64,000 bases of DNA from Bacteroidota bacterium (GTDB lineage Bacteria; Bacteroidota; Bacteroidia; Cytophagales; Microscillaceae), in the NCBI GenBank assembly GCA_004293265.1, contig RDXZ01000009.1, positions 1 through 64,000 on the forward strand, given 5' to 3'. The notes below the pieces were generated by a model. That model did not search any database and was not told the DNA's origin. It saw nothing but the letters and a program-made list of their open reading frames with translations. A program made the position numbers and the translations under genes. Shown here in pieces: positions 6,833 to 57,481 of the stretch. The first letter of the stretch is position 1, and the number at the start of each line of letters is the position of its first letter.

Positions 6833-7062
6833 TTTTTAAAAAAAATTATTACCAAAAAATAGAATAATTTTGTATGAGTTTTAATGATTGTTGAATAATT
6901 TGCTTTACAAAAACGGTGCTAATATAGTGCAAATATTTTAATAAAAAAATAAGTAATGAAAAAATAGTGTTTTTTTTATATAATTTTTTTTTCGAGTGAG
7001 GTATAATATTTTAATAAATAATTGATAATCAATTGTTTAATTTTTTTGTATCAATTTATTCC

Positions 7063-7683
7063 TCAAAACAATTCACGTAAAAATTCCCATTTTAGATGAT
7101 TATAATGTGATTTTTCAAAAGGAAATTTTATGATTGTGTATTGTGGAAAGTTAGACATTTTATCTTTTGTATATTCTGGCAAGATTTCTTTATATTTAAT
7201 ATTATGCTTTCTAAATTCTCTTTGTTGGGAAGTTTTTAAATTCTTTTTATGAAATAAAAAATGTTCTATTTTTGTATCTAAAATAGGATTTTTTGTGAAA
7301 TTTTGGTATAAATTCAAAATATACTCTACAAAAATATGCACATTTACCAACTGATATTCATAATCTTGTGGGTCTAAACTCACAGATTTTAGTTCACAAA
7401 TCAAAATATAAGTTATATCATTTTCTTCGCAGACCACCACAGCATCACAACGTTTTTTTATGTTTGGAGCATTACCCAAAAATTCATTATTTGCTTTTCG
7501 TTCGGTATTTTCTCCAAAACTAATAGGTTTATCCAAACTAAAAACAAAAGCATTTAGAGGCAAGTTTTTGATGATAACTTCACGTAAATCAGTATTTTCT
7601 GTAGCATTTTCTTCTTTTAAACTTACTTTATTGTCTTTTATTTCCAATAAAAGTAAAGCATTGATATAGTTTTGTAAATTCAT
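7063..7683 (-). CDS. Putative PD-(D/E)XK nuclease-like partner of the ATPase
   Basis: KRCDAVVV...ITYILICELKSVSL...DYEYQLVN gives a D...ExK...Q pattern like RecB-type nuclease cores; starts 7 bp after the ATPase stop. Confidence 0.5.
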   Translation of the reverse strand: MNLQNYINALLLLEIKDNKVSLKEENATENTDLREVIIKNLPLNAFVFSLDKPISFGENTERKANNEFLGNAPNIKKRCDAVVVCEENDITYILICELKSVSLDPQDYEYQLVNVHIFVEYILNLYQNFTKNPILDTKIEHFLFHKKNLKTSQQREFRKHNIKYKEILPEYTKDKMSNFPQYTIIKFPFEKSHYNHLKWEFLRELF

Positions 7684-7690
7684 ATTTTAG

Positions 7691-8992
7691 TTAACCAAGT
7701 ATATCAAAAAGAGAATCTGAAACTTCATTAAATCGTTTGATTGCCTCATCAAAAGTTGTTTTTTCCATACCAAGTTTGTCTATTTTCACTTCTTCAACTG
7801 TGCCTTCTTCGTGAGCAATATACACTCGAATATCGTCTTTTTTTAAAATATCTTTTTCTGTATAACCATACTCTTGCATTAATTCTTCTTTCTCCGCAAA
7901 ATCATTTGAAAGCATAAAACAATTATTAAGTTCTTTGACTATATAATCACTATGTGTAGTTATCCAAACTTTAATTCCTGAATTAACTAATTTAACTAAT
8001 AATCTTGCAATTTTTATTTGATTTTCGGGGTGTAGGTTGAGTTCGGGTTCGTCTATCATCAATAAATCGCCTTTTTGAACTATGTGTTTAAGATAAAAAT
8101 GTAAGTCTGCCAAAGTTCGCACAGAAGTAGAAGCCATAAAAGCGGGCGTAATTACTCCATTGGCATCTTGTATTTGAAAACTATCATAATGAATTTGATA
8201 TTTTACGCCTAAAATTTTCTCTATTTCATTTATTAAAATCGTATCTTTTAAAAATGAGTCATATTTTGATAACTTATTTAAGTCAGAAACAAAATCTATT
8301 TGAGATTCAAGAGGTAAAGCATATTTATCCAAGTCATTACTACCATTTCTAATTGTATATCTTGCTTTCTTATTGATTGCATTTTTGAATAAATGCAAAG
8401 CATCTCTTTGGGCAGTCAAAATAAATAGATTTTGATTAAAAATATGATATGCTATGAAATCTAAACATTTTTCTAATGAGTCTTTATCAAAAATTTCTTT
8501 TGTTTGTTTTTCAACTTGAAATTTGAAAAAAGATGTATTTTTTATATTTTCATAAGAAAATACAAAGCCTTCACTACCTTTCACTTCCCCGTAAATACTA
8601 TCTAATCCTTCATAAAATTCTTCGTCTGAAATACTACCTTCGATGCTTGTTTCTTCAAAAGTCTTTTCGTTTGAATCAAATATTTTATTCATTTGTTTTC
8701 CATATTGTAAAATTCTATCTGAAAATTCTGCTTTAAAATTATCTTTCAAAATTTTTAAATCAACTTCTTTTGTTAATCCTGCATTAAGTTCTGAAGCCAA
8801 AGTTACTTTATCAATCGCATCAAAAAAATTAGAATTTATTGTTGCATACGTTAGTTTTCGTGATAAAACTCCCCAAATTGCATAAGTTAAATACGTCTTT
8901 CCCGTATTATTTTTACCTGAAATAATGGTAAGATTACCCATTTCTATTTTGGCATCTTTGATAGCACCTAAATTTTTGAATTTAAAAAGCAT
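7691..8992 (-). CDS. OLD/AAA_15-AAA_21-type ATPase
   Basis: Walker A GKNNTGKTYL at N-terminus, Walker B LLMIDEPELNLHPENQ, WITTHSDYIVKELNN; gene context with nuclease-like ORF. Confidence 0.85.
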   Translation of the reverse strand: MLFKFKNLGAIKDAKIEMGNLTIISGKNNTGKTYLTYAIWGVLSRKLTYATINSNFFDAIDKVTLASELNAGLTKEVDLKILKDNFKAEFSDRILQYGKQMNKIFDSNEKTFEETSIEGSISDEEFYEGLDSIYGEVKGSEGFVFSYENIKNTSFFKFQVEKQTKEIFDKDSLEKCLDFIAYHIFNQNLFILTAQRDALHLFKNAINKKARYTIRNGSNDLDKYALPLESQIDFVSDLNKLSKYDSFLKDTILINEIEKILGVKYQIHYDSFQIQDANGVITPAFMASTSVRTLADLHFYLKHIVQKGDLLMIDEPELNLHPENQIKIARLLVKLVNSGIKVWITTHSDYIVKELNNCFMLSNDFAEKEELMQEYGYTEKDILKKDDIRVYIAHEEGTVEEVKIDKLGMEKTTFDEAIKRFNEVSDSLFDILG

Positions 8993-9031
8993 AATTGAAA
9001 ATCATTGTTTAATTTAAAAAATATAAACCTT

Positions 9032-9070
9032 AAAAACTTTCCAAAAGTTTAAAAACTTTTGGAAAGTTAA
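9032..9070. repeat. Palindrome family R4, copy 1
   Basis: aaactttccaaaagtttaaaaacttttggaaagtta. Confidence 0.7.
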
Positions 9071-9074
9071 TAAA

Positions 9075-9127
9075 AAAACTACCTACTCAAATACAAATTC
9101 ATTTCTCCATAGATTTTAAAAAAAATA
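9075..9127 (-). repeat. Duplicated remnant of the carB 3' end (direct repeat)
   Basis: Encodes IFFKIYGEMNLYLSR* versus authentic car[16 protein letters not shown]; about 50/53 nt identical by hand alignment. Confidence 0.9.
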
Positions 9128-9517
9128 TCATATATGATTTTTAAACCATTCTTGTACCTGTTCCAAAGTTTGTTCACCTGATGCGACAGAAATAGTGAAA
9201 TTGATGAGCGAATCATCGTCTGCTTTTATTTCTATTTTATTGAGAAGTAAAAAAATAATAGATGTTTGTAATCCTGTCCTTTTGTTTCCATCTTGAAAAA
9301 TATGGTTACAAATGATATTAAACATATAAACACCTGCCTTTTGATAAATTTCAGGGTAAAGTGGCTCGCCAAACATTTCAGCGGTAACTGCTTCGATGAG
9401 ATAATCTAAATTTTCTTCGTGCAAAAAATTATCAGGTGGGATAAAATTACCACCAAATACTTTCACTTGATTGTGATTAATGGCTATGATTTGCTCTTTT
9501 GTAAGATATTTTATCAT
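9128..9517 (-). CDS. Doc/Fic-family (death-on-curing) toxin
   Basis: HIFQDGNKRTG Fic/Doc motif; ORF track starts at 9532, but ATG at 9517 overlaps the antitoxin stop as ATGA. Confidence 0.85.
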   Translation of the reverse strand: MIKYLTKEQIIAINHNQVKVFGGNFIPPDNFLHEENLDYLIEAVTAEMFGEPLYPEIYQKAGVYMFNIICNHIFQDGNKRTGLQTSIIFLLLNKIEIKADDDSLINFTISVASGEQTLEQVQEWFKNHI

Positions 9518-9702
9518 GCCAACGCCTCCCATACTTTCTCATATTTCTTATTGGTTGTTTCGATTAACAAACTAAGTTCATCTTGTTTTTCATCTTCTTT
9601 TTCTTTGGTAAGTTTAGCAACGAATTCCGCTACTTTTTCTAATTTTTCATCAGGCAAAGTATTTATTTTTACGATAAGTTGTTCTTTGTCTATTGTTGTC
9701 AT
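9514..9702 (-). CDS. Antitoxin of Doc-type TA module (DUF2281-like small acidic protein)
   Basis: 62 aa, MTTIDKEQLIVKINTLPDEKLEKVAEFVAKL..., overlaps toxin start by 4 nt. Confidence 0.7.
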   Translation of the reverse strand: MTTIDKEQLIVKINTLPDEKLEKVAEFVAKLTKEKEDEKQDELSLLIETTNKKYEKVWEALA

Positions 9703-25701: not shown

Positions 25702-28700
25702 ATGTCAAAAGAATACAATCCAAAAGAAATAGAAAATAAGTGGCAACAATATTGGCAGGAAAATAATATTTATCAAGTTGAAAATCAATCAGATAAACCA
25801 AAATATTATGTATTAGATATGTTTCCTTATCCGTCAGGTGCGGGTTTGCACGTGGGGCATCCGTTAGGATATATTGCCACTGATATTTTTTCTCGCTATA
25901 AAAAAATGCAAGGTTTTAATGTTTTGCATCCGATGGGTTTTGATTCTTTTGGACTTCCTGCCGAACAATATGCAATCGAAACAGGGCAACACCCTGCTAT
26001 CACCACTGAAAATAATATTAAAACCTTTAAAAATCAATTATCAAAAATAGGTTTTAATTACGATAAAAATACAGAAATTCAGACTTCGAGTGCTGCTTAT
26101 TATCGTTGGACACAATGGATTTTTGGGCAATTATTCAATGCTTATTTTGATAAAAAAACACAAAAAGCAGAAGAAATTAGTACATTGATTGATGCTTTTG
26201 AAAAAAATGGCAATCAAAATATTGAGGCTGTTTGCAATGAAAATACACCTATTTTTTCAGCAGAAGAATGGAAAAATAAAACTCAATCAGAAAAACAATC
26301 GATTTTATTGAATTATCGTTTGGCTTTTATTGCTGAAGCGACAGTGAATTGGTGTCCTGCTTTGGGAATGGTGTTGGCAAATGACGAGGTAAAAGACGGA
26401 CTTTCGGAGCGTGGCGGACACCCCGTAGAACGCAAAAAAATGAAACAATGGATGATGAGAATTACGGCTTATGCGGATAGATTGTTGGAGAATTTGGAAA
26501 ATTTAGATTGGTCGGAGGCTGTCAAAGAAATGCAAAGAAATTGGATAGGAAAGTCTATAGGTTGTGAAATTGATTTTAACCTCACCCCCTTGCCCCCTCT
26601 CCACTTGGAGAGGGGGAATATTCAGACTTCAAATCAGTCTGTTTATTATCCAAATCTATTTACAACAGAGCCTGAAAAATGGAAATATTTGAAAGAATTA
26701 GCACGAAACCACCGCAAAAACTCAACAGAAGCAGAAAATATTTTGTGGCAAGAGTTAAGAAATCAAAAATTAGGTTTCAAAATTAGAAGGCAACACGCTA
26801 TTGAAGATTTTATTGTCGATTTTGTTTCTTTGGAAAAAAAATTGGTCATCGAAGTAGATGGCGAATATCATAATGAAAAAGAACAAAAAGAATATGATAA
26901 TTTTAGAACTTGGACATTACAAAATACAGGTTTTAATGAAATTCGTTTTACAAATGATGAAGTTTTAAATGATTTGAACAATGTATTAGAAAAAATTAAA
27001 AATAGATTAAAAAATAATAACAGCAAAATAACAATCCCCTCTCCAAATGGAGAGGGGGCAGGGGGTGAGGTTCAAAAACTGACCGCCTTTACTACCCGCA
27101 TCGACACTATTTTTGGCGTTTCTTACCTTGTGCTTGCTCCCGAACACGAAATTATACCAATACTAACCACCGAAACACAAAAAGAAGAAGTTGAAAAATA
27201 TGTTCATTGGGCAAAAAATAGGTCAGAATTAGAAAGACAATCAGAAGTAAAAAATGTTTCAGGCGTATTCACAGGAAGCTATGTTATCAATCCATTTAAC
27301 CAAGAAAAAATACCAATTTGGGTGGCTGATTATGTGTTGGCAGGTTATGGAACAGGCGTTGTGATGGGCGTTCCAAGTTCTGATGAAAGAGATTTTAGAT
27401 TTGCAAAGCATTTTAATTTACCAATCCGTTTGGTGATAGAAGGCACAGAAGAAATGGAAAATCCAACCGAAAAAAAATATGGAAAAATGATAAATTCCGA
27501 TTTTTTGAATGGATTGGATACAAAAGATGCCATCAAAAAAGCCATCGAATTTGTTGAAAATCAAGACATTGGACAATCAAAAGTGAATTTTCGTTTGCGT
27601 GATGCCGCGTTTAGTCGTCAAAGATATTGGGGCGAGCCGATGCCTATTTATTATAAAGATGGATTGCCTTGTTTGGTTGATGAAAGTGATTTGCCTTTGT
27701 TATTGCCTGAAATTAACGAATACAAACCAACTGCTGACGGCGAGCCACCTTTGGCAAGAGCAAAAAATTGGACATATAAAGGTTATCCACTCGAAACAAC
27801 CACAATGCCCGGCTGGGCAGGTTCATCTTGGTATTTTTTGAGGTATATGGATAGTCAAAATCAAGATATATTTGCTTCAAAACAAGCCACAGATTATTGG
27901 AATCAGGTTGATTTGTATGTGGGAGGAACAGAACACGCAGTCGGGCATTTGTTATATTCGCGTTTTTGGACAAATTTTTTGGCGGATAGAGGTTTTATTT
28001 CTTTCCAAGAACCATTCAAAAAAATGATAAATCAAGGAATGATTCAGGGGCAATCGGCTTTGATGTATCGTTTGAAAAATCAAGATACTTTTATCTCTTG
28101 GAATTTAAGAAAAAATTATAAAGAAGAAGAATTGCAAGAATTGCATGTAGATGTCAATATTGTTGAAAACAATGTTTTGAACATTGAATTATTTAAAAAA
28201 TGGAGAAGCGAAAACGAAAATGCTACTTTTTTGTTGGAAGATGATAAATTTATATGCGGTTCACAAGTCGAAAAAATGTCAAAACGTTGGTACAATGTAG
28301 TCAATCCTGATGATGTGATTGAAAAATATAGTGCAGATACTTTGCGTTTATACGAAATGTTTTTGGGACCTTTGGAGCAATACAAGCCTTGGAGTATGCA
28401 AGGCATTGATGGTTGTCATAAATTTTTGAAACGTTTGTGGCGTTTGTTTTATGACAATGAAGGCAATATCCAACTCACAGACGAAACCGCAAATCCTGCT
28501 GAATTGAAGGCTTTGCATAAATGTATCAAAGGTGTGAGAGAAGATTTAGACCGCTATTCGTTTAATACACCTGTGAGTAAATTTATGATTTTGGTAACTG
28601 AATTGATAGAATTAAAATGTCATAAAAAATCAATTTTAGAAAGTTTTTTACGCTTGTTAGTGCCTTACACGCCACATATTTGCGAAGAACTTTGGCAAAA

Positions 28701-28959
28701 TGGATTGGGTTATTCATCAAGTATTTATCATTCAGAATTTCCTATTTTCGAAGAAAAATATTTGACTGAAAATGATTATAGTTATCCTATTCAAATCAAC
28801 GGAAAAATGAGAGGCAATGTTACATTTCCACTCGATTTATCAAAAGAAGAAATTGAAAAAATGATAGTTGAAAACGAACTTGTCCAAAAATATTTAGAAG
28901 GCAATGTTCCTAAAAAAGTAATCATTGTTCCTAAAAAAATTATAAATATTGTGTTATAA
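25702..28959 (+). CDS. leuS: Leucyl-tRNA synthetase with in-frame DUF559 domain insertion in the CP1 editing domain
   Basis: MFPYPSGAGLHVGHPLGY (HIGH region), KMSKRWYNVVNPDD (KMSKS), LTAFTTRIDTIFGVSYL editing core; 1085 aa = about 921 aa LeuRS + about 164 aa insert. Confidence 0.97.
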   Translation: MSKEYNPKEIENKWQQYWQENNIYQVENQSDKPKYYVLDMFPYPSGAGLHVGHPLGYIATDIFSRYKKMQGFNVLHPMGFDSFGLPAEQYAIETGQHPAITTENNIKTFKNQLSKIGFNYDKNTEIQTSSAAYYRWTQWIFGQLFNAYFDKKTQKAEEISTLIDAFEKNGNQNIEAVCNENTPIFSAEEWKNKTQSEKQSILLNYRLAFIAEATVNWCPALGMVLANDEVKDGLSERGGHPVERKKMKQWMMRITAYADRLLENLENLDWSEAVKEMQRNWIGKSIGCEIDFNLTPLPPLHLERGNIQTSNQSVYYPNLFTTEPEKWKYLKELARNHRKNSTEAENILWQELRNQKLGFKIRRQHAIEDFIVDFVSLEKKLVIEVDGEYHNEKEQKEYDNFRTWTLQNTGFNEIRFTNDEVLNDLNNVLEKIKNRLKNNNSKITIPSPNGEGAGGEVQKLTAFTTRIDTIFGVSYLVLAPEHEIIPILTTETQKEEVEKYVHWAKNRSELERQSEVKNVSGVFTGSYVINPFNQEKIPIWVADYVLAGYGTGVVMGVPSSDERDFRFAKHFNLPIRLVIEGTEEMENPTEKKYGKMINSDFLNGLDTKDAIKKAIEFVENQDIGQSKVNFRLRDAAFSRQRYWGEPMPIYYKDGLPCLVDESDLPLLLPEINEYKPTADGEPPLARAKNWTYKGYPLETTTMPGWAGSSWYFLRYMDSQNQDIFASKQATDYWNQVDLYVGGTEHAVGHLLYSRFWTNFLADRGFISFQEPFKKMINQGMIQGQSALMYRLKNQDTFISWNLRKNYKEEELQELHVDVNIVENNVLNIELFKKWRSENENATFLLEDDKFICGSQVEKMSKRWYNVVNPDDVIEKYSADTLRLYEMFLGPLEQYKPWSMQGIDGCHKFLKRLWRLFYDNEGNIQLTDETANPAELKALHKCIKGVREDLDRYSFNTPVSKFMILVTELIELKCHKKSILESFLRLLVPYTPHICEELWQNGLGYSSSIYHSEFPIFEEKYLTENDYSYPIQINGKMRGNVTFPLDLSKEEIEKMIVENELVQKYLEGNVPKKVIIVPKKIINIVL
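26579..27071 (+). mobile_element. Palindrome-bounded in-frame insertion encoding DUF559 (PD-(D/E)XK/Vsr-like) nuclease domain
   Basis: Arms cctcacccccttgccccctctccacttggagaggggg (about 26580-26616) and cccctctccaaatggagagggggcagggggtgagg (27036-27070) are inverted repeats; between them ...ARNHRKNSTEAENILWQELRNQKLGFKIRRQHAIEDFIVDFVSLEKKLVIEVDGEYHNEKEQKEYDNFR... Confidence 0.9.
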
Positions 28960-38838: not shown

Positions 38839-38999
38839 ATTTGGTAGTGCTATAAATCTAATGTTTTGTCTGATTTTAGGTTTAAAATTAGACTTATTTT
38901 AAAAGAAGCGAAAATATACTTTTTCATTTACAAATTACCATTCAATAAGCAGTTACTTCACTTTGTTCAGCAGGGCAAAACATTCATAACACTACCAAT
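38839..38999 (+). repeat. MITE-like repeat family R2, copy 3
   Basis: Ends aatttggtagtg...cactaccaattt; internal agcagttacttcactttgttcagcagggcaaaacatt. Confidence 0.8.
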
Positions 39000-41751
39000 T
39001 TTTATTATTATTTTGAATTAAATTTATAATTTTTGCTTTCCAATCTGATATTTCGAAACCAGTAGGATTAGAAGAAAAATCTTTTCTTAATCGACCAAAC
39101 GTACCTTTATCATTGACATAAGCTTCCAATTTTCCTAATAACCGTACTGTTTCAAGTGAATTACCACTTTCTTCAAAATCTTTGAGTAGATTTTTTAATT
39201 CTGTCTCATTTTTTAGGGAATTAACTTTCCTTTCAGATTCTTTTGTTGTTTCTTCCTCATTAGCAAAATTACTCGAAAAGTCATTATTAAAATCTTTTGA
39301 AAAAATAAAAGGAAACTCTTTTTGATAAATTTCTTTATATTCTTTGATTTCTTTGATGCTTTTTTTTTCTTTTGAAAATAACTCAATATTTTCATTTTTA
39401 TTACTCAACTCAAATAATGCTGTCCAAATCTCCGCTGTAACATCATAATCATTGTTTTCAACTTTAATTAGAATTTTACGCTCTTTATAATCACAAGTGG
39501 CATAAACACCTTTTTTTAGATGTTTAAAAAACAAACCATTTTTCCAATACAAATAGTTTTCTGCTTTTGAACCATATTGTGAAATAAAACGCAAGAAAAG
39601 ACTTTTAGGTAAAAATTTAGGAAAATGAATTTCAAAAGATGTTTCTAATTTACAATAATCTAAAGCGAGATTTAATCCATCTTCATTGGTGCAAGTTGGA
39701 GATAAATATTGTGGTGCTACATACAAAGTTTTTCCTTTCTTTTCTATTTCAAAAATCAACTCAAATTCTTTCATTAAATCTATCCAAACATTTGGTGTAA
39801 TACCTGATGTTTTTATTTGCTTTTTCACATGTACAAAATCAAATTCGCCTTTGCCTTGCAAATCTTTTGAAAGAATTTTATAAATATAATCTGATAACCA
39901 AACAGGATTTAAGAAAACATAGTCTTTGAGTTGTTCAGAAATATTATTTTGATAATGATAACAAATAATCGCCCCTGTTTCGTGTAAAAAATTAGTAAGT
40001 GTTTGGATTTGAGAATCATTTTGCAAAATCTTTTTCTCTGTATTGTCATTCTCTTGACAAAGTTTTTCATATGCCTCAAAAGATAAAAACATTTCTTTTT
40101 GATTGGCTAAAAGTGCGCGAATATCATCATAAACTTTGGGAAAAGGTTTTGCTAAATGATCTAAATGATGTAATTGATTAAAAATACTTTGTTTTAATTT
40201 TTTTATGTCTAAATCATATTCTTGTGTGTCGTTTTCTTTCCTCAAATGTATTTTATATTTTAAATTTGCGTCGTCAGTTTTACAAGTTCCATTTTCTTTG
40301 TTTTGAATTTCAAAAACAATATTTTTAGGTGCATAATTTTTAATGCTTTCTCGCCAATATTCCAAAGGATACATGCCTTTTTCCTCATCTTGTTTGTTGG
40401 TTTCCGCGTCCCACACCAAAAAATACATAGCATTATTACTCAAAAATAAAGAATGTGTAGCGTGATAATATTCCTGACCGCCAAAATCCCAAAGTTTGAG
40501 CGTGATATCTCTAGGAAAATAAAAACCAATAACAGATTTTTTTGTTTCTTGATTTATTTCAGATTGTTTTTTTGTGATATCTAACGAACTTTTTAATAAT
40601 TTTTTTTGAATCCCATCAGGAAGTTGATTGATTTTTAATGTTTCTTGTTCTATTTTTTGGTCTAAACTCAATAAATTATTATTTTCTATTTTTATTATTT
40701 CAAGAGCAACTCTTTGTGCTTCTTCAAAATCAGGCAATTCACTCACGGGAATTGTCCATTCCTCTATCAAAATACCGTGTGTTCTTTCTTCTTTGGGAAT
40801 AACAACAAATTCATTTTTCCTAAATTGATGTGAAAGTGTAGTTTTCCCTGCTTCTCCATTACCTATCCAAATTACCTTTGCCTCTGCGTTGATAATTTGC
40901 CCTTCTGCAAGTGCAATAAAGTAGTTGCGGACATCTTCTAAGACATCCTCAGGTTCATAATCAAAAATATATTTATCAAAAATCTCTTTGGGAATATTTT
41001 GAATCGGATTGCCTACTAAATAAAGTTCTTTAAGTTTTGGTAGATCTTTTAATAAATTTTTATCAAAAAAATCTAAATTATTGTTGCTAATATTTAAGTA
41101 TTCTAATTCTTTAAACCTTTTAAAATCATAAGTTTTAATAATTATTTTATCATCATTACCATTTGATATAAATTTTGATATAGCATCTTGTAGTTTTTCA
41201 TTTTTGATTCCTGAAGTTTTTCTAAGATATTCTTTAAACGACAACTCATTGTCTTCAGCAAGACAAATTTGATTATTGCTTAAATCCAAATGTTTCAAAT
41301 TAAATAAATCTTTGAAAGGTTCGATAAATATTATGTGATTACTTCTTAATTCTAACTTTATTAATTTTTTTAAATCATTCAATGGCTTTAATGGTAAGTT
41401 TTGTAATTCGACGATAGGTCTAATATCATCTGCATTCTTCTCCAAACAACGAGATAAATTTAGTACTTTTAATTCATTCAAAAATTTAAGAGGTGAAAAG
41501 TCTGATAAAAGCCAATTATCTTCTAAATTTAAATACAATAGATTTTTAAACTTTTTCAAAAATGAAATATCTTCAATTTTATTATAATGAGATAAATCTA
41601 ACCCTATTATATTTTGGTTGCTATCTAATAAATAAGATTTGGAATTTTGAAAACCATCCCATTCTATAAATTCTTTAGCACTTCTTGTAAACTGCTTCAA
41701 TTTAAAACCAAGTATTTTTTCTAATTCAATAATTTGTAATGGTTTATTCAT
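38992..41751 (-). CDS. LRR-Roc-COR (ROCO) GTPase protein
   Basis: N-terminal LRRs, Roc P-loop GNGEAGKTTL, switch II LKLWDFGGQEYYHATHSLFL, COR-like region VLFLNPVWLSDYIYKIL... Confidence 0.85.
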   Translation of the reverse strand: MNKPLQIIELEKILGFKLKQFTRSAKEFIEWDGFQNSKSYLLDSNQNIIGLDLSHYNKIEDISFLKKFKNLLYLNLEDNWLLSDFSPLKFLNELKVLNLSRCLEKNADDIRPIVELQNLPLKPLNDLKKLIKLELRSNHIIFIEPFKDLFNLKHLDLSNNQICLAEDNELSFKEYLRKTSGIKNEKLQDAISKFISNGNDDKIIIKTYDFKRFKELEYLNISNNNLDFFDKNLLKDLPKLKELYLVGNPIQNIPKEIFDKYIFDYEPEDVLEDVRNYFIALAEGQIINAEAKVIWIGNGEAGKTTLSHQFRKNEFVVIPKEERTHGILIEEWTIPVSELPDFEEAQRVALEIIKIENNNLLSLDQKIEQETLKINQLPDGIQKKLLKSSLDITKKQSEINQETKKSVIGFYFPRDITLKLWDFGGQEYYHATHSLFLSNNAMYFLVWDAETNKQDEEKGMYPLEYWRESIKNYAPKNIVFEIQNKENGTCKTDDANLKYKIHLRKENDTQEYDLDIKKLKQSIFNQLHHLDHLAKPFPKVYDDIRALLANQKEMFLSFEAYEKLCQENDNTEKKILQNDSQIQTLTNFLHETGAIICYHYQNNISEQLKDYVFLNPVWLSDYIYKILSKDLQGKGEFDFVHVKKQIKTSGITPNVWIDLMKEFELIFEIEKKGKTLYVAPQYLSPTCTNEDGLNLALDYCKLETSFEIHFPKFLPKSLFLRFISQYGSKAENYLYWKNGLFFKHLKKGVYATCDYKERKILIKVENNDYDVTAEIWTALFELSNKNENIELFSKEKKSIKEIKEYKEIYQKEFPFIFSKDFNNDFSSNFANEEETTKESERKVNSLKNETELKNLLKDFEESGNSLETVRLLGKLEAYVNDKGTFGRLRKDFSSNPTGFEISDWKAKIINLIQNNNKNW

Positions 41752-42164: not shown

Positions 42165-42659
42165 ATGAAACTAAATATAAAGGACTTAAAAAATGGTCGT
42201 CAGTGGCAATCAAGCACTGGATTATCAGAAGAAAAATTTTATAATTTACTAAACACATTTAAAATGTGTTATGAAAAACAAAATAACAACCAATCACTAT
42301 CTGAAGGACTATCTAATTTAGGTATTAAAAATCCTATTTTAAGCACTTATGAAGATTGTTTATTTTTTGTTCTTTTTCAATTAAAAAATGGGTTAACTTT
42401 TGATGTTTTAGGACTTATTTTTAATACAGATGGAAGTAATGCAAAACGTAATTTTGAACGTTATTTAGTTATCTTAGAGTTGGCTTTAGCAGAAAGAGGT
42501 TATGTACCTAAACGCAATTTTTCAGATGAAAAAGAGTTTTTAGCGTATTTAAAAGATGAAAAAGAACTTATTTTTGATGGGACAGAGTTTCCTATTGAAC
42601 GTCCAGATGATAGAGAAGAACAAAAAGAAGCATTTAGTGGTAAAAAAAAACACACGTAA
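42165..42659 (+). CDS. IS5-like transposase, ORF A (N-terminal part)
   Basis: HTH-type N-terminal region followed by FDGTEFPIERPDD...SGKKK, first DDE aspartate region. Confidence 0.85.
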   Translation: MKLNIKDLKNGRQWQSSTGLSEEKFYNLLNTFKMCYEKQNNNQSLSEGLSNLGIKNPILSTYEDCLFFVLFQLKNGLTFDVLGLIFNTDGSNAKRNFERYLVILELALAERGYVPKRNFSDEKEFLAYLKDEKELIFDGTEFPIERPDDREEQKEAFSGKKKHT

Positions 42660-42673
42660 AAAAAGTTTTACTT

Positions 42674-43084
42674 TTGTCAAATAAAAAGCGTAAAATATTA
42701 TATATCAGTAAAATATATGTAGGTGCAAAACACGACTTTGGTATGATGAAAAAAGAGTTTTCATCTGATTTGAGTTGGTTTAATGAATTTTCTTTATTTT
42801 TAGATAGTGGATTTCAAGGATTTGATAAATTGTACAAAACAAAAGAGTTAAAAATTACTTTTAGACGCACCAGAGCCAAAAAAGGAGAAAAAAAAGATTT
42901 GACAGACGAACAACTTTTACACAATAAAGAAGTAGGCAGTGAGCGAATTTTTGTAGAACACGCTATTGGTGGTTTAAAACGATTTAAAATTCTTTACAAT
43001 CGTATAAGATTGAAAAAAGATGATACACTTAATTCCATAATAAACTGTGCTGCAGGGCTGTGGAATTTTTATATCGATTCATAA
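42674..43084 (+). CDS. IS5-like transposase, ORF B (C-terminal part, -1 frame)
   Basis: YVGAKHDFGMMKKEF, LFLDSGFQGF, FVEHAIGGLKRFKILYNRIR: DDE catalytic C-terminal region. Confidence 0.85.
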   Translation: MSNKKRKILYISKIYVGAKHDFGMMKKEFSSDLSWFNEFSLFLDSGFQGFDKLYKTKELKITFRRTRAKKGEKKDLTDEQLLHNKEVGSERIFVEHAIGGLKRFKILYNRIRLKKDDTLNSIINCAAGLWNFYIDS

Positions 43085-56560: not shown

Positions 56561-56749
56561 TTATTTATTTACCAATACTTTATCAAAATCAATACATAGA
56601 ACATTATCTTCATAATCTTCTATCAAAGAAACTAATAAGTCAAGTTCTTCATATTCAACACTTCCTATTGGGTGAGAAATCTGCATAAGATCCCAAACTC
56701 GTTTTAGTGCGTTTTGGTATTGTTCGGTGGAATTAAGTTTATGGTTCAT
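56561..56749 (-). CDS. HigA N-terminal-like antitoxin fragment lacking an HTH
   Basis: NSTEQYQNALKRVWDLMQISHPIGSVEYEELDLLVSLIEDYED resembles the N-terminal portion of HigA (COG5499-like); ORF ends before any HTH. Confidence 0.65.
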   Translation of the reverse strand: MNHKLNSTEQYQNALKRVWDLMQISHPIGSVEYEELDLLVSLIEDYEDNVLCIDFDKVLVNK

Positions 56750-57044
56750 AAGTAATTTTTTTTGCGTCTATTTTATCATATTCAACATGTGTTCCTATCC
56801 AAAGAATAAAAACAAATTTTATTTCATAATCTACTTCAGTTATCAAACGAAAATCATTCCCTTTTATGTTAAAAATTACTCGATTATTTCCTAAAATACT
56901 TGCATTTCCAAATATATTTTTAATTTCATTGGGTGTACTCCATTCTTGTTGTTTAGTAATAATGTACCAATCTCGTAATGGCTGTTCTGATTCGGGATAA
57001 ATCTTCCAAAAATTACGTAACGTACTTTTCGCTATAATTCTCAT
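56739..57044 (-). CDS. higB: HigB-type mRNA interferase toxin
   Basis: MRIIAKSTLRNFWKIYPESEQPLRDWYIITKQQEWSTPNEIKNIFGNASILGNNRVIFNIKGNDFRLITEVDYEIKFVFILWIGTHVEYDKID. Confidence 0.9.
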   Translation of the reverse strand: MRIIAKSTLRNFWKIYPESEQPLRDWYIITKQQEWSTPNEIKNIFGNASILGNNRVIFNIKGNDFRLITEVDYEIKFVFILWIGTHVEYDKIDAKKITYEP

Positions 57045-57481
57045 TTATTTAATAAAATATATAATTTGTCTAACTGTTTTTCGAGATTTTGGATTTGTTT
57101 TTCGTGCTTATCTTCGTTTTTTTGAATTTGTTTTTGAAGGTCGCTTATATAATTATCTTTTTCCATGAGTAGTTTTTCGTATAGTTTTTCCGTGCCATTT
57201 ACAATAGAGTTGATATAATTTGCTGAATTTCCATCCACTTTACAATTATTAAAAACCATTTTTGTATCAAAACTTACCAGACCTGCTATACTCATTTCTA
57301 AAGCATCAGCAATAATTTGCAATTCACTAAAAGATATATCCTTATTTCCATTCTCAAGATTTTGATAATTACGCACTGTCATATCTAATTTTTGTGCTAA
57401 CTGTGTTTGAGTAAAACCTTTTAATTCTCTTAGTTTTTTAATTCTATCTTTAACTTCTGCTAATTTTGTTGTGATTGTCAT
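57041..57481 (-). CDS. XRE-family HTH regulator with C-terminal coiled coil
   Basis: KKLRELKGFTQTQLAQKLDMTVRNYQNLENGNKDISFSELQIIADALEM; heptad-like C-terminus; 4-nt overlap with higB. Confidence 0.9.
   Translation of the reverse strand: MTITTKLAEVKDRIKKLRELKGFTQTQLAQKLDMTVRNYQNLENGNKDISFSELQIIADALEMSIAGLVSFDTKMVFNNCKVDGNSANYINSIVNGTEKLYEKLLMEKDNYISDLQKQIQKNEDKHEKQIQNLEKQLDKLYILLNK

Follow-up and report, generated by a model that had tools for sequence, protein, structure and literature searches.

A divergent gene pair from a Cytophagales genome that probably encodes a PD-T4-4-type ATPase-nuclease defence system

Two adjacent genes on contig RDXZ01000009.1 of a Bacteroidota bacterium of the Microscillaceae (assembly GCA_004293265.1) very probably constitute, as judged by profile matches, a PD-T4-4-type ATPase-nuclease defence pair. 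They lie in the first 64,000 nucleotides of the contig, the stretch analysed here and referred to as the window. Both open reading frames were found where the original prediction had placed them, with the 206-aa frame starting, as it had said, 7 bp after the ATPase stop (7684-7690); the strand, which it had not given, is minus. The features of the locus are as follows.

7030..9079, no strand: segment of about 2.05 kb holding exactly the two genes (blastn against L154, L155, and L156)
7691..8992, minus strand: ATPase gene, first of the pair, PD-T4-4_A-like, ABC/OLD family, without TOPRIM (433 aa)
8894..8917, minus strand: Walker A, GKNNTGKT, aa 26-33, with K32 (G26, N28, N29, G31, K32, and T33 invariant in 30 homologues)
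8402..8413, minus strand: AQRD motif, aa 194-197 (R196 invariant in 30 homologues)
8042..8065, minus strand: Walker B, LLMIDEPE, aa 310-317, with E315 (motif position and 30-homologue alignment)
7946..7960, minus strand: H-loop, TTHSD, aa 345-349, with H347 (motif position and 30-homologue alignment)
7063..7683, minus strand: putative nuclease gene, second of the pair, PD-T4-4_B-like (206 aa)
7384..7449, minus strand: putative catalytic core, CDAVV(x12)CELKS, with D80, E97, and K99 (conservation among downstream homologues)
7342..7356, minus strand: YQLVN, with Q111, a conserved residue of the helix that follows the ELK strand (residues 105-130 in the model)

The best of 81 PADLOC matches to the ATPase is PD-T4-4_A (E value, 2.6e-90), which covers residues 1 to 429 of 433, and the best match to the nuclease is PD-T4-4_B (6.8e-16) over residues 5 to 166. 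The original prediction had proposed a defence pair made of an ATPase and a PD-(D/E)XK nuclease that fits no named system; the pair itself is borne out by PADLOC, by the motif, by the pairing of the genes, and weakly by the structure search, but PADLOC calls a defence system that does have a name. Functional selection in Escherichia coli had uncovered PD-T4-4 within an ICE-like element, and the system protects E. coli (PMC9519451), and a review table describes it as a P-loop NTPase with a PD-(D/E)xK nuclease (PMC10952713).

The window pair shares with PD-T4-4 the number and order of the genes, PADLOC recognition of both of them, an AAA_15-type ATPase, and a PD-(D/E)xK-like partner, but it is distant in sequence. 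A gene pair on an Escherichia albertii plasmid scores 855.9 and 354.1 bits against the PD-T4-4 models and is therefore close to the founding system, for which it was used as a stand-in. Compared with this pair, the window ATPase is 28% identical over its full length (1e-44), whereas the window nuclease is alignable in its core only, with 27% identity (2e-10). The window nuclease has diverged strongly from the founding PD-T4-4_B and matches the PADLOC models with E values of only about 1e-16 to 1e-14. A tree of 94 ATPases places the window sequence with those of Cytophagales and Thiotrichaceae and puts the Escherichia PD-T4-4 rows on a branch of their own; its deep order is uncertain because of the quick method and the long branches. 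Since both genes belong to the described and widespread PD-T4-4 family, the pair is best seen as a divergent new member rather than a new kind of system. It very probably belongs to a wider family of OLD-like ABC ATPases with PD-(D/E)xK-like nucleases that also includes WonAB.

The key residues of the ATPase motifs are invariant or almost so among the 30 homologues, including those of the Walker A and Walker B motifs that had been predicted. There is a signature-like STSVRTL at residues 288 to 294, and R196 of the AQRD motif is a possible equivalent of R182 of WonA. Pfam assigns the protein to AAA_15 (2.5e-27), with AAA_21 also matched. The absence of an obvious C-terminal TOPRIM domain, also predicted, was confirmed: only 84 residues follow the H-loop, they are modelled as two short strands and helices, and the Pfam search matched no TOPRIM family in the ATPase even at E values up to 10. 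The AlphaFold model (pLDDT, 82.8) retrieved PtuA of Septu and retron systems, AriA of PARIS, GajA of Gabija, and Rad50 with Foldseek, at E values near 1e-8.

The small protein carries the near-invariant motif D-x16-E-x-K…Q. Among 79 aligned rows of nuclease homologues, D80 is kept in 78 of 78, E97 in 72 of 76 (E or D in 75 of 76), K99 in 73 of 76, Q111 in 71 of 76, and a further acidic residue, E24, in 70 of 76, so the predicted D...ELK...Q spacing (CDAVV, CELKS, and YQLVN) is real and not a chance occurrence. An AlphaFold2 model built from a 36-row alignment has a pLDDT of 87.8 and a pTM of 0.87; plasmid-derived rows were left out of the alignments for the structure models. By our own reading of the topology, the predicted order of a strand bearing D80, the ELK strand, a long helix bearing Q111, and a further strand is as expected of a PD-(D/E)xK core. 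The model is a confident one and gave no result against a nuclease, but its support from Foldseek is weak, as the best E value against solved structures is 0.07 and none reaches 0.001. PD-(D/E)xK nucleases are prominent in the weak top 50, which includes FokI, BamHI, cap-snatching endonucleases, and Avs3 alongside unrelated folds, among them metallo-beta-lactamases and mitoribosomal proteins. Because these matches are weak and of mixed folds, the nuclease assignment rests mainly on the motif and the family. Searches of solved structures with phmmer and profiles gave nothing significant, the Pfam search gave no domain, and tblastn against phage records gave no match to the nuclease; its alignment contained no segment of sufficient conservation for scanning viral sequences. 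The authors of the WonAB study see in the equivalent proteins a variant, or a new form, of the PD-(D/E)xK fold (PMC12137116).

Of the other known systems, WonAB is likewise a two-gene operon of an OLD-like ABC ATPase and a PD-(D/E)xK-variant nuclease, and its authors link it to PD-T4-4 and to "OLD-ABC ATPase + novel REase" operons (PMC12137116); compared by description only, WonB (16.1 kDa) is smaller than the 206-aa window nuclease, and a WonAB model is absent among the PADLOC matches listed for both genes. The PADLOC candidate PDC-M47 is the next-best system for both genes (ATPase, 1.6e-78; nuclease, 4.8e-8) but scores below PD-T4-4 for each. PARIS also has its ATPase and nuclease in separate genes, and the window ATPase matches the AriA models (7e-30) and the AriA structure 8v47; the PD-T4-4 models, however, score far above those of AriA, and AriB has a TOPRIM-type domain, whereas the window partner has a PD-(D/E)xK-type motif, matches only PD-T4-4_B and PDC-M47B in PADLOC, and has no Pfam domain, so that it is not an AriB-like partner. 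Septu is another ATPase-nuclease pair, and the structure that the window ATPase matches best is PtuA (8eea), but PtuB is an HNH nuclease; the window partner has D-E-x-K and gave no HNH match in Pfam or PADLOC. Gabija and OLD classes 1 to 3 differ in having a C-terminal TOPRIM fused to their ATPase, in contrast to the window ATPase.

The pairing of the two genes is clearly maintained. A search of genome contigs with the single ATPase sequence found no relatives, and a search with an ATPase alignment found 497, of which 80 were kept. These loci, picked by ATPase similarity and not a random sample, come from many bacterial phyla and from archaea of the Methanosarcinales. A match to the nuclease profile lies directly downstream of the ATPase in 78 of the 80, some of the matches being short or interrupted by a shift of frame, and the nuclease was also present in all six viral contigs with the ATPase. 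One of the two loci without a match (L064) is cut off by the end of its sequence. Among the relatives searched, the nuclease homologue follows directly after the ATPase homologue, L032 being the one locus at which no such ORF was seen. Neighbour conservation, which had been proposed as a check, thus shows the pair to be co-inherited, and the contrary case, that the genes are not inherited together, is excluded by these counts. The neighbours of the nearest relatives are mostly housekeeping-like rather than defence islands, which counts against the defence reading. At L036 (5381-9521), the genes on either side of a PD-T4-4-like pair are a CysD-like gene of the PAPS-reductase family and a CysN-like gene for an EF-Tu-like GTPase; this pair apparently sits within an operon for sulfate assimilation.

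The distribution of the pair is patchy. Both congeneric genomes, G001 and G002 (the latter only 79% complete), lack it, and of the family genomes compared only G009 yielded both genes in full; in G004, pieces of both were found at the edges of contigs. The blastn comparison with the congeneric regions shows homology to G001 up to 7029 and homology to G002 from 9080 onwards, and the segment between has no counterpart in these regions. Since the pair is missing in both congeners and flank homology stops just outside it, it has the look of a 2-kb cassette that was acquired. Its GC content is 26.8%, versus 30.9% for the window and 36.4% for carB. No single genome compared has a clean empty site, and the two congener regions could not supply a true one, as neither of them has both flanks together. 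The pair is flanked by a direct repeat of 12 bp, ATTGTTTAATTT, at 7032 and 9004, which was considered as a target-site duplication and rejected as too weak (shuffle P of about 0.02, in very AT-rich DNA).

On the ATPase side of the cassette lies a Doc/Fic-type toxin gene with a small upstream ORF (9128-9702, minus strand; TIGR01550, 2.7e-16). In G002, the region between carB and the Doc gene (L154, 4910-9065) holds an N6_Mtase, Eco57I, and HSDR_N gene plus a partner ORF, probably a different restriction system; at the corresponding junction of the window, carB and the toxin pair are direct neighbours. The different defence genes at this junction suggest, on the two congeners compared and no more firmly than that, that the area near carB takes up varied defence genes. 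Between the Doc gene and the ATPase, a hairpin, ACTTTCCAAAAGTTT..AACTTTTGGAAAGT, at 9036-9067 folds at z = -6.4; it occurs at about three dozen places genome-wide, the reversed control pattern at none, and it is possibly a terminator or a member of a dispersed palindrome family.

The Doc gene is on the same strand as the pair and close to it, with 135 bp between 8992 and 9128, and it matches the Doc family, so a larger defence unit including the toxin and its small upstream ORF was weighed. We consider such a unit very improbable: in G002 a 94% identical Doc gene lies near and downstream of carB without the ATPase-nuclease pair, the pair's nearest relatives have no evident Doc gene next to them, and the strong repeat-family hairpin separates the two units. 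On the first two of these grounds, the Doc/Fic pair was rejected as part of the defence system. It is also improbable that the two genes are a toxin-antitoxin module that serves mainly its own maintenance, with the ATPase neutralising the nuclease. The two-gene operon and a possibly toxic small protein would fit such a module, and WonB is toxic when overproduced; its toxicity, however, appears only with a functional WonA, including its ATPase activity (PMC12137116), which argues against simple neutralisation. The ATPase is, moreover, far larger than usual antitoxins, and PADLOC recognises in the two proteins the components of a defence system.

For the PD-T4-4-type defence pair itself, WonAB offers the closest guide to mechanism. 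By analogy with WonAB, the ATPase would probably be a dimer with composite ATP sites; it would sense some consequence of phage infection and, by the same analogy, bind and license the small nuclease. Once activated, the nuclease would cut nucleic acid, be it host tRNA or rRNA or DNA, and so stop phage production, most likely, to judge from WonAB, via growth arrest or abortive infection. The guess made in the original prediction, that the ATPase senses or regulates and the small protein is the effector nuclease, is reasonable on this analogy. In WonAB, the ATPase residues of WonA and K71 of WonB are required for defence, translation stops while genomic DNA stays intact, with rRNA or tRNA proposed as the target, and infection is aborted (PMC12137116). 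An abortive, WonAB-like outcome is named here as somewhat probable for the window pair, with WonAB rather than PD-T4-4 itself as its basis. The behaviour of this better-studied relative speaks against direct immunity, in which the nuclease would attack phage DNA and the infected cell survive. Direct DNA attack is nonetheless conceivable, if less likely than not, because in the founding study 7 of the 11 systems that had putative DNase components conferred direct immunity (PMC9519451); the ATPase fold also resembles Rad50 and SMC-type DNA-binding ATPases. We regard it as unlikely, though conceivable, that the window pair, together with its relatives in Cytophagales and Thiotrichaceae, is a branch of the OLD-ABC ATPase plus nuclease family with a function of its own. 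The PD-(D/E)xK-like protein of such a branch would be an RNase, activated by infection, that stops translation by tRNA or rRNA cleavage in response to a trigger unlike that of PD-T4-4 or WonAB.

Several other features of the window were recorded. The leucyl-tRNA synthetase gene (25702-28959, plus strand) contains an in-frame DUF559 domain of PD-(D/E)xK type (Pfam, 3.2e-31; aa 329-436), inserted at about 26574-27076, adjoining the editing domain and flanked by 30-nt inverted repeats (93%). This form is present as a single copy in the genome and is kept in the congener G002 (1094-aa frame, 94% identity); the synthetase frames are 1112 to 1120 aa long in G001 and G006 and about 940 aa in G003, G008, and G009. 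The window also encodes a Roco-type protein with leucine-rich repeats and Roc GTPase and COR domains (38992-41751, minus strand), a DDE_Tnp_4 transposase split over two ORFs (42165-43084, plus strand), and a HigB-type toxin with an HTH antitoxin (56739-57481, minus strand).

The picture of defence system types is unchanged by this pair, which, if the assignment is right, adds a Cytophagales lineage to those with PD-T4-4-type defence. The 78 paired loci, from many bacterial phyla and archaea, and the six viral contigs indicate that the two genes are kept as a unit. D80, E97, K99, and Q111 of the nuclease and K32, R196, E315, and H347 of the ATPase are candidate catalytic residues, and they bear on the still unsolved question of what such nucleases cut.
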